Source: Caulobacteraceae bacterium (GTDB taxonomy: Bacteria > Pseudomonadota > Alphaproteobacteria > Caulobacterales > Caulobacteraceae). From it: a stretch of 64,000 bases of DNA. The stretch's first letter is position 1. Every line of letters starts with the position of its first letter. The notes under the pieces are model-generated. The model was not told where the DNA came from, did not search any database, and saw only the letters and a program-made list of their open reading frames with translations. Below, piece after piece: positions 13,188 through 37,173 of the stretch. The DNA is taken from assembly GCA_947475875.1 (NCBI GenBank), contig CANJME010000003.1, forward strand, positions 62,001-126,000, given 5' to 3'. The translations under genes and the position numbers were made by a program.

Positions 13188-13268
13188 GCGGGGCGTCTAG
13201 CACATTCGGGGGCCTCAAGCGCAAGACCGGCTGGACTTGTGCCTGCGGCGCCATTCGCAAGAAAATAT

Positions 13269-13454
13269 AACCACAAAGGCACAAAGGAAGATCAAGGTTT
13301 CACGAAGGGACCTTTGTCCCTCGGCGCCTTTGGGGCCGACCGGCGATCAGATTTGACCGCGGCGTAGCCGCCGCAAGAAACCTGGGCTCGCATCCGGCCT
13401 TGGGGATGACCAAGAGCTTTGTGTAGCTTGATCTTCCTTTGTGTCTTTGTGGTT
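13269..13454. repeat. 186-bp inverted-repeat (MITE-like) element, ACAAAGG type
   Basis: The arm at 13269-13296 begins AACCACAAAGGCACAAAGG. It is matched in inverted orientation at 13427-13454 over 28 bases with one mismatch. Each arm contains short ACAAAGG-type direct repeats. The 130 bp between them has no credible gene. It lies in the divergent gap between lepA and the EipA gene. Its layout resembles the CACGGAG-type elements at 27.8 and 29.9 kb, but the arm sequence differs. Confidence 0.75.
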
Positions 13455-13589
13455 TTCTTACTTTCCTGCTGATCGACAGGCGCGGACAAGCCGCGCCGGG
13501 GTCATACCCGCAAAAATCGCCCACCGTCTCAAACCGGACTCAAAGCGGAGTACACTCGGCTGCAGTTGATTCTGCCCCGGAGAGACCAC

Positions 13590-15658: not shown

Positions 15659-15809
15659 CCCCCTTGAGGGGGGAAGGGTAGGGGATGGGGGTGCTCGCAC
15701 CGGCGGCGACAAATGGGGCTCTGATGGGTGGTCGCGGCAGAATACCATGCACGAATTTCAACGGGCGGCGAGAGCACCCCCATCCCCGACCCTTCCCCCC
15801 TCAAAGGGG
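15659..15809. repeat. 151-bp inverted-repeat element with 38-bp arms
   Basis: The arms at 15659-15696 and 15772-15809 are inverted copies with two mismatches in 38 bases. Each arm contains its own small hairpin around TTGA or TTTGA flanked by C and G runs. The 75-bp centre is non-coding. The unit lies between the divergent xseA and the small secreted-protein gene. The sequence resembles dispersed 'CCCTTGAGGGGG' repeats common in Caulobacter-type genomes, which is recalled and not searched. Confidence 0.75.
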
Positions 15810-27713: not shown

Positions 27714-27785
27714 GGCGGAGCTATAGCGGAGGGGCTGGTGAATCCAAATCGCGCCCGCGGCTTACCCGCGCCTTCGGCGCGGTTG

Positions 27786-27916
27786 AAATAAGTACACGGA
27801 GGTCACGGAGCCCTCGGGCGAGCCCGAGGGCATGCACAGAGATCGCGGATTTCTCAGAGCCAGCTCTGACCCTCCGTGTCCTCCGTGTCTCCTCCGTGAT
27901 CTCCGTGTACTTATTT
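27786..27916. repeat. 131-bp MITE-like element with CACGGAG-type terminal inverted repeats
   Basis: The left end (27786-27809, starting AAATAAGTACACGGAGGTC) matches the inverted right end (27893-27916) over 24 bases with one mismatch. The same arm sequence bounds the gene-bearing element at 29919-30398. Inside lies a perfect 10-bp stem with GA loop (27810-27819 with 27822-27831) and CACAGAGATCGCGGA (27835-27849), nearly identical to 29949-29963 of the larger element. It has no gene. It looks like an internally deleted derivative. A TTG flanks both sides, possibly by chance. Confidence 0.8.
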
Positions 27917-27954
27917 TTGATGCGCGCTCCGCGCGCGTGACTAGGATTTCGTAG

Positions 27955-28302: not shown

Positions 28303-28949
28303 GCGATGAAACTCCAGACACCCGTCTTTTTCACTTCCATGTCCTCAAGTTCCCGGGTGGTCGCGACCTGATACTCGGCCAGCTTCGTCATGCCGTCCTT
28401 CGGAAAATACGTCCTTCCGGGGTCGCCGACCAATACGGTTGAGCCAGTGTCCCTCGCCGCCTTGAGCCAGGCCACGACCCGTTCGGCCAGGGGTTTTTCG
28501 TAGCAAATGTCGCCGGCCAGAACGACGTCCGCGGCCGGGCAGGGCGCGTCGAGCAGATTGGTGGATGTAAAGTCGCAGGAAACCCCATTGGCTGCGGCGT
28601 TCAGCGAAAGCGCCGCGCCGCAGAACTCGTCGATATCGGCGGCCAGCACATGCGCCGCGCCGGCCTTCATGGCGGCGATGGCGACGATGCCGGAGCCGGA
28701 CGCGAAGTCGACAACCCGTTTGCCGGCGACGATGTCCGGATTGTCGAGGATGTGGCGGGCCAACGCCTGCCCACCGGCCCAGGCGAAGGCCCAGAACGGG
28801 GGCGGTAGGCCCATCTGGCCGAGTTCTTCCTCGGTCTTGCGCCAGATTGGCGTGATCTCGTCGGCCAGGTGCAAAACCAGTTCCGGCGTATGCGGTGGAG
28901 TTTGCAGACGGGTGTTGGCGAGGATGAAGGCCTCGCAGCCCTCGATCAC
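28299..28949 (-). CDS. class I SAM-dependent methyltransferase, ETFB lysine-methyltransferase type
   Basis: The 216-residue product has PPFWAFAWAGGQALARHIL, the SAM-binding motif VVDFASGSGIVAIAAMKAG, an acidic LAADID, and VLAGDICYEKP, as in the COG3897 group. The Agrobacterium member of this family trimethylates lysine of the electron-transfer flavoprotein beta subunit. Assigning that substrate here is inference. The GTG at 28947-28949 overlaps the ubiA stop as GTGA, and its stop overlaps the YjbR start, so the three genes are translationally coupled. No ETF genes are in the window. Confidence 0.85.
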   Translation of the reverse strand: MIEGCEAFILANTRLQTPPHTPELVLHLADEITPIWRKTEEELGQMGLPPPFWAFAWAGGQALARHILDNPDIVAGKRVVDFASGSGIVAIAAMKAGAAHVLAADIDEFCGAALSLNAAANGVSCDFTSTNLLDAPCPAADVVLAGDICYEKPLAERVVAWLKAARDTGSTVLVGDPGRTYFPKDGMTKLAEYQVATTRELEDMEVKKTGVWSFIA

Positions 28950-29875
28950 AGCACGCCCGCGGCGCCGGGCCACAGACCCGCGACGAGGCCGGCGAAGACG
29001 ATCAGTCCGGCCGCGCGGTTGGATTTGAAGAGTTTGAGGGCGAGCGCCGGGTCGTCTGTTCGCACCCGGCTGGCTTGCCACGAGAGGTGCAGCGCGAAGA
29101 GGCCGGCGAAGGGCAGGAAAAGCGGGCCGATGCCGCCGGCCCGGGCAGCCGCGACAACCAGCGTGGCCGCGACGGTGTAAAAGGCCAGGACGCCCCAACG
29201 GGCCCGCTCGCCCAGCCGCCGCGCCGATGACTTCACTCCGACCAGGGCGTCATCCTCGATGTCCTGGATGGCGTAGGTGGTGTCGTATCCCAGGGTCCAG
29301 GCAATGCCCGAAGCGTAGAGAAGGACAGCGGCGACATCGATCCTGCCGCTTGCCGCCGCATAACCCACCATGGCCCCCCAGTTGAAGGTCAGACCCAGCC
29401 ATGCCTGAGGCCACCAGGTGATCCTCTTCATGAACGGATAGGCCGCGACCAGCGCCAGCGAGCCTACGCCAAGCAGGATGGCGACCGGGCCGAGGGTGAC
29501 AAGAATGCCCACCGAGATGACGCAGCAGGCCGCCAGAAACGCCCAGGCCTGCTTGACGCTGATCTGTCCCGACGGGATCGGCCGGGCGGCGGTGCGAGCC
29601 ACCCTGGCGTCGATATCGCGGTCGACGATGTCGTTGTAGGCGCACCCCGCCGCCCGCATCAGCGCCGCGCCTATGGCGAAGGCGATCAGCAGCCAGGGGC
29701 TGGGCCATTTGTGCTGCGATGACGCCGCCAGCGCGATCCCCTGCCAGCCGGGCAGCATGAGAAGCCAGATCCCGATCGGCCGATCAAACCGCCCCAGTTT
29801 CAGCCAAGGCCGCAAGCTTGGCGGCGCAAGGCGATCCACCCAGTTGGCGGGCGCGGCGTCGGGAAGGGCGGTCAT
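28946..29875 (-). CDS. ubiA: 4-hydroxybenzoate polyprenyltransferase
   Basis: The 309-residue product is a polytopic membrane protein with about eight helices. It carries the first Asp-rich motif NDIVDRDIDARVART (near residue 80) and the second, YAIQDIEDDALVGVKSSA. These bind the Mg-prenyl diphosphate, which is transferred to 4-hydroxybenzoate in ubiquinone synthesis. The N-terminal DRLAPPSLRPWLKLGRFDRPIG is typical. I chose the ATG at 29875; a longer frame to 29920 enters the neighbouring repeat and is probably not used. Confidence 0.95.
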   Translation of the reverse strand: MTALPDAAPANWVDRLAPPSLRPWLKLGRFDRPIGIWLLMLPGWQGIALAASSQHKWPSPWLLIAFAIGAALMRAAGCAYNDIVDRDIDARVARTAARPIPSGQISVKQAWAFLAACCVISVGILVTLGPVAILLGVGSLALVAAYPFMKRITWWPQAWLGLTFNWGAMVGYAAASGRIDVAAVLLYASGIAWTLGYDTTYAIQDIEDDALVGVKSSARRLGERARWGVLAFYTVAATLVVAAARAGGIGPLFLPFAGLFALHLSWQASRVRTDDPALALKLFKSNRAAGLIVFAGLVAGLWPGAAGVL

Positions 29876-29918
29876 GATTGGCGGTATAGCGAGATACGAT
29901 GCAGGCGGCGAGGTGAGC

Positions 29919-30398
29919 AAAATAAGTACACGGAGGTCACGGAGGAGACACAGAGATCACGGAGTTCGTGGCTCACAGAACCCTGCGGCGAATGCCCTGC
30001 TTAAGCACGGGCACATTGAAATTGATAAGGTAGCCAAGTCTTCGGCCGGACAGGCGCAGATAGGTCAAGAGCTGCGCCTCGTGGACCGCCGCCAATTGTT
30101 CAACTGCTTTGACCTCCACGACGACCAAATCGTCGACGAGCAGATCGATGCGGTAGCCAATGTCAATTCGCACCTCACCCAACACGGCCGGCAACGCGAG
30201 TTGCCGGTCAACCTTGTGTCCGTCCTTTGTCAATTCGTGAGCGAGGAACGCTTCGTAAGCATTTTCAAGCAACCCTGGCCCAAAAGTTCGGCGCACGTTG
30301 AGTGCCGCTCCGAGCACTGCAGTACCGATCTCGTCGACCGCACTCAGATCTTCTCCGTGAACTCCGTGCATCCTCCGTGACCTCCGTGTACTTATTTT
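29919..30398. mobile_element. 480-bp element: perfect 28-bp terminal inverted repeats around a GxxExxY gene
   Basis: The left arm 29919-29946 begins AAAATAAGTACACGGAGGTC and is an exact inverted copy of 30371-30398. Imperfect CACGGAG/CACAGAG units extend each arm inward to about 45 bases. The only gene inside (29973-30371, minus) starts with the last bases of the right arm. A non-coding relative with the same ends lies at 27786-27916. No obvious target-site duplication is seen (gagc on the left, tcaa on the right). No transposase of a known type is inside. Mobility is inferred from the arms and the second copy. Confidence 0.75.
29973..30371 (-). CDS. GxxExxY protein with PD-(D/E)xK-like motif
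   Basis: The 132-residue product carries the defining motif at G33-x-x-E36-x-x-Y39 (FGPGLLENAYEAFL). A nuclease-like signature follows: D76 (YRIDLLVDD), then E86-V-K88 (VVVEVKAVE), then QLLTYLRLSG and LGYLINFN. This family belongs to the PD-(D/E)xK clan, but no activity is established that I know of. The ATG lies at 30369-30371, within the right inverted repeat, and the first residues (MHGVHGED) are translated repeat units. The CGGAGG units of the repeat also supply Shine-Dalgarno-like sequence nine bases upstream. Nearly all of the 480-bp element is this gene. Confidence 0.9.
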   Translation of the reverse strand: MHGVHGEDLSAVDEIGTAVLGAALNVRRTFGPGLLENAYEAFLAHELTKDGHKVDRQLALPAVLGEVRIDIGYRIDLLVDDLVVVEVKAVEQLAAVHEAQLLTYLRLSGRRLGYLINFNVPVLKQGIRRRVL

Positions 30399-30578
30399 TC
30401 AAAAAGAACAAAAAAAGAACAATTATTGCTTGGTCAAGCCACGCCTCAACGTTTCGTGGGCATTTTGGCCACAGGCGTCACTAATTCGCATAACGCGGGT
30501 AACTTCGCTCGCCAGGCGAGGCGACTTCATATATTCGGGCCGGCTTTTTTCTGCAGATCAGGCCCCATCAGGCACACC
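30399..30578. other. AT-rich gap upstream of the second ABC exporter
   Basis: The first 30 bases after the element are A-rich (AAAAAGAAC and AAAAAAAGAAC repeats), unlike the surrounding GC-rich DNA. The gap should contain the promoter of the exporter gene; I see no clear boxes. Confidence 0.4.
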
Positions 30579-32372
30579 ATGAGCGACACCACTTTTGACG
30601 ATGAGGACGACGAAAGGCGTCCCCGGCTTTTGACCAACAGCCAGCTGATGGGCTTCATCGCCCGCCGCTGGATGGACCACCCGCGCCGGTTCTTCATCAT
30701 GACCAGCCTCTTCGCGCTGGCGACCTTCTGCGAGCTCGCCATTCCCTGGGCGGCGGGCGGGCTGGTCGACGCGGTCTCCGCGGTTGAGCGCGTGTCCGCC
30801 GCCGCCTGGTCGGCCTGGGCCACGCTCGCTGTCATCTACATCGCCTATTACACGACCCGCACCTTCGCCTTCCGCAACATGAACCAGTTCAGTTCGCGGA
30901 ACATGGAAAAGCTGATCACCGACGGCTTTACACGCGTGCAGGCGTTCTCGGCCGACTGGCATGCCTCGACTTTCGCCGGCGCTACGGTGCGCAAGGTGAC
31001 GCGCGCCATGTGGGGTTTTGACGCCGCAACAGACGGCATCCTGCTGATGCTGGGTCCGACGGTGATCGTGCTGACGGGCTTGGTAATCACCATCAGCCTG
31101 CGCTGGCCGATCGTCGGGCTCTATGCGGCCGGGCTGATCGGCGGCTTTGTCGCCTTCCAGCTGATCATGATGAAGCACTTCATCCGGCCGGTGAACCTGA
31201 CCTCCAATGCGCTCGACACCCGCATCGGCGCGAGCCTGGCCGACGCCATCAGCGCCAATCCGGTGGTCAAGGGCTTCGGCGCCGAGGAACGCGAAGAGGC
31301 GCGGTTCGCGGCGCTGGCCCGCACCTGGCAGCAGGCGGTCGCGCGCACCTGGAACCGCTTCAACATCGTCGGCATGTGCTCAAACGTCATGATGGTGCTG
31401 CTGCAGGGCGGCCTGACCGGCCTGCTCATCTGGCGCTGGACCAAGGGCGAGGCCTCGCCAGGTGATGTGGCCTTCGCCATCACCTCGTTCATGCTGATGC
31501 AGAGCTACCTGCGCAATTTCAACGAGATCACCCGCACCCTGCAAAAAGGGTTCGACGACGTGCTGGACGTCGCCCAGTTCCTGCGCACCGACCCGCAGCT
31601 GGCCGACCAACCCGGCGCGCCGGCTTTCCGTGGCCTGTCCGGTGAGATCGTCTTTGAAGACGTGCGGTTCGGCTATCAAAACCAGGCGCAGGATCTCTAT
31701 CAGGACTTCTCCCTGGTGATCCGGCCGGGTGAGCGGATCGCACTCGTTGGCCCCACGGGCGCCGGCAAGTCGACCTTCGTCAAGCTGATCCAACGGCTCT
31801 ATGACCTGCAGGCCGGCCGCATCGTCATTGACGGCCAGGACATCTCGCAGGTGTCGCAAGGCTCCCTGCGCCGGGCCATCGCCACGGTGCCGCAGGACCC
31901 GGCGCTGTTTCACCGCTCGATCGCCGAGAATATCGCCTATGCGCGGCCCGATGCGACCCAGGACGAAATCGAACTGGCGGCCCGCCGGGCCCGCGCGCAT
32001 GACTTCATCGCCGTGCTGCCGAAAGGCTACGACACCCTGGTCGGCGAGCGGGGGGTGAAACTCTCCGGCGGCGAGCGCCAGCGGGTGGCGATCGCGCGCG
32101 CCTTCCTCGCCGACGCGCCGATCCTGGTTCTGGACGAGGCGACCTCATCGCTCGACGTCGCCACCGAGCGGCAGGTGCAGGCTGCGACCGAGGAGTTGAT
32201 GAAGGGCCGCACCACCATCGTCATCGCCCACCGCCTGTCGACCATCCGCTCGGCCGACCGCATCCTGGTGTTCGAAGACGGCCGCATCGTCGAAGAAGGC
32301 CGCCACGCCGACCTGGTGGCGCGGGGCGGGGCGTATGCGCGCCTGCACGCGGTGACGGAAGGGACGGGGTGA
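30579..32372 (+). CDS. ABC exporter, fused membrane and ATPase domains
   Basis: The 597-residue product has an acidic start (MSDTTFDDEDDERRPRLLT), six membrane helices to about residue 330, and an ATPase domain: GPTGAGKST, VPQDPALFHRSIAENIAYA, LSGGERQRV, ILVLDEATSSLD and IAHRLSTI. It is a type IV (MsbA/multidrug-like) homodimeric exporter half with no substrate hint. It is distinct from the MsbA-like exporter at 21.6 kb and lies outside the lipid A block. I chose the ATG at 30579 over earlier in-frame starts because the earlier part is not protein-like. Its stop overlaps the next start (GTGATG). Confidence 0.92.
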   Translation: MSDTTFDDEDDERRPRLLTNSQLMGFIARRWMDHPRRFFIMTSLFALATFCELAIPWAAGGLVDAVSAVERVSAAAWSAWATLAVIYIAYYTTRTFAFRNMNQFSSRNMEKLITDGFTRVQAFSADWHASTFAGATVRKVTRAMWGFDAATDGILLMLGPTVIVLTGLVITISLRWPIVGLYAAGLIGGFVAFQLIMMKHFIRPVNLTSNALDTRIGASLADAISANPVVKGFGAEEREEARFAALARTWQQAVARTWNRFNIVGMCSNVMMVLLQGGLTGLLIWRWTKGEASPGDVAFAITSFMLMQSYLRNFNEITRTLQKGFDDVLDVAQFLRTDPQLADQPGAPAFRGLSGEIVFEDVRFGYQNQAQDLYQDFSLVIRPGERIALVGPTGAGKSTFVKLIQRLYDLQAGRIVIDGQDISQVSQGSLRRAIATVPQDPALFHRSIAENIAYARPDATQDEIELAARRARAHDFIAVLPKGYDTLVGERGVKLSGGERQRVAIARAFLADAPILVLDEATSSLDVATERQVQAATEELMKGRTTIVIAHRLSTIRSADRILVFEDGRIVEEGRHADLVARGGAYARLHAVTEGTG

Positions 32373-37041: not shown

Positions 37042-37173
37042 TTTCCCTCCCGCTTGTCGGGAGGGTGGCTCGGTGCGGAGCGCCGAGACGGGTGGGCGAG
37101 TCTGGTGGAAGCACTGGCGTTGCCCACCCTGGCGGCTGACGCCGCCTGTCCCTCCCGACAAGCGGGAGGGAAA
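37042..37173. repeat. 132-bp inverted-repeat element with perfect 24-bp arms
   Basis: The arm at 37042-37065 (starting TTTCCCTCCCGCTTGTCGG) is an exact inverted copy of 37150-37173. Each arm is itself a small hairpin, CCCTCCCG with CGGGAGGG. The ~84-bp centre also has inverted stretches (gggtgggcgag with ttgcccaccc). It is non-coding and sits 8 bp after the aldehyde dehydrogenase stop. It may serve as that gene's terminator as well as being a mobile-derived repeat. Confidence 0.75.

Follow-up and report, generated by a model that had tools for sequence, protein, structure and literature searches.

Insertion sequences carry short inverted ends around one gene, and their gene-less derivatives (MITEs) share these ends only; both are mostly intergenic (PMC10969869). 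Proteins of the Rpn family (YhgA-like, Transposase_31) have been linked to RecA-independent horizontal transfer (PMC5350276) and are described as toxin–antitoxin defence proteins in another study (PMC10327210). They form another family of the PD-(D/E)xK superfamily. Our search of open papers found none that treats GxxExxY as a mobile-element gene, and the sequences of the units described below were not found there either. GxxExxY genes are common and, to our knowledge, have had no role assigned to them so far.

The GxxExxY gene considered here lies in a window of 64 000 nucleotides (the whole stretch of DNA that was analysed) from a member of the Caulobacteraceae with a genome of 2.85 Mb in 49 contigs. 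The relevant features of the window are the following.

29919–30398, minus strand: gene-bearing GxxExxY element, entire unit, 480 bp; the site is empty in sister species G001
29919–29964, plus strand: downstream arm of the gene, AAAATAAGTA and then four CAC(G/A)GAG-type units; the first 28 nt match the other arm exactly
30353–30398, minus strand: arm upstream of the gene; its units provide the ribosome-binding GGAGG, the ATG and the N-terminal codons (MHGVHGE)
29973–30371, minus strand: GxxExxY gene, 132 amino acids, PD-(D/E)xK fold, with Glu36, Asp76, Glu86, Lys88, Gln100 and Tyr104
28946–29920, minus strand: flanking ubiA (UbiA prenyltransferase); the listed TTG-start frame extends to the element edge
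30579–32372, plus strand: flanking ABC transporter gene, inside ORF 30426–32372
27786–27916, no strand assigned: gene-less element (MITE) whose arms are those of the gene-bearing unit, with GC hairpins just outside both ends
13264–13459, no strand assigned: gene-less element with the arms of the C18-type gene-bearing element, AACCACAAAGGCACAAAGGAAG

The first-pass annotation of this DNA had described a single gene filling a unit with perfect 28 bp terminal inverted repeats. On recheck, the arms 29919–29946 and 30371–30398 are indeed exact 28-base reverse complements, and the repeat continues to 46 nt at 91% identity (29919–29964/30353–30398), which makes it the strongest inverted repeat with a spacing below 700 bp in the whole window. 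The sole gene found is GxxExxY/PDDEXK_3. The placement of its start codon and ribosome-binding site in the repeat, also proposed at that stage, is borne out: the ATG begins at 30371, the innermost base of the exact arm, and the preceding GGAGG comes from a CACGGAGG unit of the right arm. A second relative had been announced 2 kb away. An element is present there, 131 bp long (27786–27916) and with the same arms, but it lacks the gene. The real start of ubiA is probably nearer to 29875 than the listed TTG start. Two more inverted repeats in the window (15659–15809 and 37042–37173, scores 32 and 24) are devoid of CACxxxG units.

The window protein is a clear member of TIGR04256 GxxExxY (E 3e-36, 124.3 bits against a cut-off of 35) and of PF13366 PDDEXK_3 (E 1.6e-35, 122.4 bits against a cut-off of 22), library models that name the protein only. 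Gly33, Glu36 and Tyr39 of the GxxExxY motif, previously picked out from the single sequence, are invariant across the aligned family members. The same holds for Asp76, Glu86 and Lys88, for which a PD-(D/E)xK-like site had been suggested together with a check of column conservation: Glu36, Asp76, Glu86, Lys88, Gln100 and Tyr104 are all invariant in 20 diverse members with 32–69% identity to the window protein. Values of dN/dS of 0.12–0.19 show that purifying selection acts on the protein.

An AlphaFold2 model of the window protein (pLDDT 91.9) has Cas4 SSO0001 as its best fold match (Foldseek E 6e-3; VIA Z 9.6 over 99 residues, 3.9 Å); the Foldseek rows that follow include AdnAB and lambda-type exonuclease domains. 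VIA matches below Z 8 are too frequent to carry weight. As modelled, the protein has the PD-(D/E)xK core fold with the Asp and the Glu-x-Lys in place; nuclease activity is inferred. The 132 residues include zero cysteines and hence no ligands for an iron–sulfur cluster, and the protein is therefore not a Cas4. Its fold relatives include defence and toxin nucleases. PADLOC gave only weak Cas4 matches (2e-4), PHROG gave one weak match to an unknown family, and a search of the PDB by sequence found no relative. PF04754 (Rpn/Transposase_31) is not matched by the window protein, and PF13366 was the sole Pfam family reported at E 0.001. In the Brevundimonas group, Leu/Ile versus Phe after an Asp-Gly pair appeared by eye to track A versus C at position 6 of the unit; these candidate specificity residues are not claimed to read the unit because the pattern follows two main clades.

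The arm recurs throughout the host genome. Its 26-base core has 42 matches with up to three mismatches, compared with 0 for the reversed control of the 26-mer in the same genome at the same tolerance, and the recurrence is therefore not due to chance. The window-type matches pair into 21 gene-less elements (106–209 bp), one decayed copy and one gene-bearing unit; the genome search for the arm that the first-pass annotation had recommended thus returned many copies with as well as without the gene. Using TIGR04256, five full genes and one partial gene were found. Each full copy has an inverted repeat of its own (41–53 nt) and forms a unit of 471–495 bp, with 458–493 bp in relatives. The arms differ among the five copies and all consist of C-x-C-x-x-x-G units at 9–10 bp spacing. 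When the genome was searched with each of the five arm types, gene-less copies turned up for four of them (21 of the window type, eight of C18, three of C4 and one of C11), the C28 element alone having none. The element at 27786–27916 and the other gene-less copies fit the description of MITEs: they are short, lack a gene and have the same inverted ends as a gene-bearing element in their genome. Among the gene-less window-type copies, the best pairs are 90–95% identical and their flanks are near background (median flank score of 0.47, and 0.37–0.61 in the best pairs), from which it follows that most of these copies were dispersed and are not segmental duplicates. Sister species G001 has one or two such gene-less copies and G002 has none. 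A second genus (G140 and G096) repeats the cognate pattern, with dozens of matches to the ends of the element that it carries itself. A RAYT as the mover was rejected, the host genome giving 0 matches to PF01797 (Y1 transposase) in a search that found its positive controls. A decayed copy in the form of a truncated GxxExxY gene without detectable ends is also present in this genome (G000:C4:6084–6281; loci L030 and L297).

Occupied and empty sites in sister species, a comparison that had likewise been advised, were both encountered. In G001 the ubiA and ABC-transporter alignments are 29 bp apart, as against 589 bp between the same alignment ends in the window. G001 lacks the gene-less copy at 27786–27916 at the syntenic place, and both G001 and G002 lack the one at 13264–13459, such that three of the three window sites are empty in G001. 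At the sister-species counterpart of this first copy, at 27.8 kb in the window, a different palindromic repeat is found (CTTCGAGACGCCC...GCGTCTCGAAG; L123, about 380–530). Many Brevundimonas copies are found at one or the other of two sites. One Brevundimonas site is occupied by a full element in 14 of 81 genomes, and in most of the others its place is taken by a short spacer or by an unrelated repeat. Some loci are common to several species of one genus. A single site in another Caulobacteraceae genus (L084, L343, L344 and L348) carries different GxxExxY-type elements in different species, one of them nested: G140 has a gene-bearing element, G096 nested gene-less ones with other units, and G063 and G135 gene-less ones of further types. 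Such spacers have therefore been hit repeatedly.

Exchange of whole units between hosts is best seen at the Brevundimonas site. In the flanks, L092 pairs with L093 and L094 with L095, whereas in the gene L092 pairs with L094 and L093 with L095. On the gene data the flank pairings are rejected (p-AU ≤5e-5 for two of three, 0.012 in the remaining case), and so are the gene pairings on the flank data (p-AU ≤1e-7). Informative sites switch from the host tree to the gene tree sharply at the element edges, without a long tract in the flanks. Across 13 of the 14 Brevundimonas loci, similarity of the arms tracks that of the gene (r = 0.75; partial r = 0.74 given the flank, p < 1e-4, 0 of 10 000 permutations) and is unrelated to the flank once the gene is accounted for (partial r = −0.01). 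Each arm also resembles its own partner more, on average, than partners from other species. Within the limits of what sequence comparison can demonstrate, the element has thus been exchanged between species independently of the neighbouring sequence. G140 carries two copies, 17 kb apart, that share an identical stretch of ∼390 bp reaching to the right end, beyond which their flanks differ. Their left parts are clearly less alike, so conversion between elements explains the pair as well as transposition does. Gene conversion, with a resident and an incoming element as partners, is also compatible with this pair and with the same-site swaps.

A direct mark of insertion is lacking. Target duplications at filled sites had been put forward as a further check, and none was found: the 51 gene-bearing elements show no excess of direct repeats at any offset, and the 21 gene-less elements show no target duplication, with small excesses only at offsets inside flanking hairpins or arm ends. 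For the gene-bearing elements this argues against ordinary DDE chemistry. The spacers of the sister species are too diverged for the exact insertion point to be read from empty sites, and in the absence of any polymorphic insertion seen between near-identical strains the exact junctions remain uncertain by perhaps 25 bp. GC hairpins are found outside 32 of the 38 ends of short gene-less copies, compared with about 11% of non-coding positions, and outside none of the six ends of long gene-less or gene-bearing copies. In the short copies (L009–L024) they lie ∼2–5 nt from the ends and vary in sequence (for example CCGCGCCTTCGGCGCGG); those of the 27786–27916 element are at window positions 27766–27782 and about 27921–27937. 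The hairpins could either belong to the short elements or reflect a preference for certain targets, and the account of a selfish element does not explain them.

The family is widespread. In the host family the gene is present in 52 of 149 genomes, with one to six copies each, and its flanks form an inverted repeat scoring >14 in 43 of 58 loci, compared with 5 of 174 in the exchanged-flank control. In a sample of named genomes, 34 of 75 loci score at least 14 versus 32 of 375 with exchanged flanks, a control that is raised because all ends share the unit. Pairs of CAC-type units at 9–10 bp spacing occur on both sides of the gene in 94 of 153 sampled loci, drawn from many phyla, and in 0.3% of shuffled sequences. 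The consensus unit reads C, A (77%), C, mostly A/G, A/G, A (74%) or C, and G (81%), positions 1, 3, 5 and 6 being partly fixed beforehand by the search pattern. Matched ends were obtained in about 13 named phyla of the named collection, and ∼40–55% of the sampled GxxExxY genes have no clear matching ends, through decay, loss or the limits of detection. Copy number reaches 15 in some genomes, and one genome holds many decayed copies. Elements are met inside conserved operons, between genes of the same direction; examples are fabD and fabG on a Sphingomonas replicon and radA and its neighbour in Bacteroides. GxxExxY was found in four records of the plasmid collection and in no record of the phage collection searched.

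Microcystis provides observations of a different kind. At a shared locus (L189, L252–L256, L264 and L265) the upstream arm forms a head-to-tail array of a 33/34 bp unit, in about four to nine copies depending on the strain. In L255, from one strain, genes for an apparent small antitoxin and an apparent PIN-domain protein separate successive arms as judged by eye (about 580–1200), and capture of cargo by recombination between repeats is possible. The same locus has solo arms within an apparent methylase-like open frame (about 2300–2330 and 2460–2530), as if the arm had been absorbed into coding sequence; the first of these is present in all Microcystis strains compared. Dispersed 36 bp repeats of Microcystis were considered as solo moving ends and discarded. 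Those examined sit inside another repeat with ends GGCTCT and are therefore not evidence of movement.

We consider it likely, though well short of certain, that the unit is a minimal selfish intergenic element in which a RecB/Cas4-like PD-(D/E)xK nuclease recognizes its own iterated ends and moves them. As judged by comparing genomes, the unit structure, patchy presence, filled and empty sites, host-independent exchange, cognate gene-less copies and selection on the protein are established, and with them mobility and the coupling of end and gene. The GxxExxY units are on this sequence-based evidence a widespread family of mobile elements without a known transposase. The role of the nuclease as mobilizer is inferred, as are unit binding, cutting, end pairing and joining by the nuclease or the host; there is no biochemical evidence of cutting or joining. 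The minimal mobile element with nothing but a nuclease-fold protein that was envisaged at the outset is accordingly supported in its layout, which withstood each refuting condition set at that stage, with catalysis of movement by the nuclease left as an inference.

The small nuclease, of the RecB/lambda-exonuclease/Cas4-like branch, would bind the iterated 9–10 bp units, probably as an oligomer, bring the two ends together and cut there. The element, or a gene-less derivative with the same ends, would then pass to a preferred intergenic site, freed or copied, or alternatively an incoming element would replace the resident one. Final joining would be left to host repair, without target duplication. 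With the start codon in the arm, expression would depend on an intact end. End and gene would stay coupled because one arm holds both the ribosome-binding site and the start codon, and lineages that drifted to their own unit sequence would each have a protein that works on its own ends and its own gene-less copies. Repression of the GxxExxY protein by its own binding at the arm is no more than a guess.

The unit might instead be mobile but moved in trans by a host or unlinked transposase or recombinase, with the nuclease as a passenger (toxin, defence factor or regulator). The defence and toxin nucleases among the fold relatives agree with such a role, as do the Rpn proteins of the same superfamily, reportedly toxin–antitoxin defence proteins (PMC10327210), and gene-less copies outnumber gene-bearing ones. 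We nevertheless regard this as unlikely. The ends co-vary with the GxxExxY gene and differ among elements of one genome, and four of the five types have gene-less copies of their own, a combination that one common trans-acting enzyme does not predict; nor does the genome have a RAYT gene or the unit any other gene. A homing-like process, in which the nuclease acts at one fixed site, cleaving alleles that are empty or heterologous, and homologous repair copies the element with little or no true transposition, has to contend with >30 gene-less copies scattered over unrelated places of a single genome, with gene-bearing copies at unrelated sites within genomes and with flanks that follow the host tree close to the element, leaving no co-conversion tract. 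It would suit the concentration of Brevundimonas copies at two sites, the repeated replacement at one of them, the absence of target duplications and the conversion-like identical pair in G140, and on balance it seems improbable.

Finally, the gene could be an ordinary vertically inherited one, its arms forming a regulatory or RNA-level structure (a 46 bp stem, mRNA ends) kept by compensatory change. The arms would pair in the transcript, and the loci common to several species of a genus are in line with vertical descent. This explanation is already contradicted by the conflict of the gene tree with the host tree at the best-sampled locus and by the gene-less copies. The patchy presence of the gene and the resemblance between units within one arm, which a stem does not need, also speak against it, and we give it hardly any credence.

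For the selfish element moved by its own nuclease, we give about even odds to the stronger proposal that the GxxExxY protein alone represents a new transposase class, with ∼125 residues, autonomous elements of <500 bp in many phyla and diverged cognate protein–end pairs, that reads 9–10 bp units and moves itself and gene-less copies.

If GxxExxY proteins drive mobile elements, a single explanation would cover many annotated small proteins together with the dispersed CACGGAG/CACAGAG/CACAAAG repeats around them, and a mobilizing system based on one 125-residue enzyme that recognizes its ends in modular fashion would be unusually small. The natural protein–end pairs (five in one genome, clean swaps at one site) make its specificity directly testable.

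Rpn nucleases, which we take to belong to the same superfamily as the window protein, form a separate Pfam family to which this protein has no match, and we know of no unit-built ends for Rpn genes. The resemblance to Cas4, RecB and lambda exonuclease lies in the best fold matches and in the QxxxY motif; unlike Cas4, the window protein is shorter and has no iron–sulfur cysteines, and the unit has no Cas1 partner. With REP/RAYT systems the family shares short dispersed inverted repeats in intergenic places, but the host genome has no Y1 transposase. Free-standing homing endonucleases are likewise small intergenic nuclease genes gained repeatedly at one site, whereas the window family has its own inverted ends and gene-less copies and no co-conversion of flanks. 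Inverted ends, gene-less derivatives and intergenic places are held in common with insertion sequences and their MITEs. From DDE-type insertion sequences the window unit differs in having PDDEXK_3 as its only gene, a PD-(D/E)xK nuclease in place of a DDE transposase, in the absence of any target duplication found and in ends built of iterated 9–10 bp units, and its 480 bp compare with about 800–2000 bp for insertion sequences (PMC10969869).
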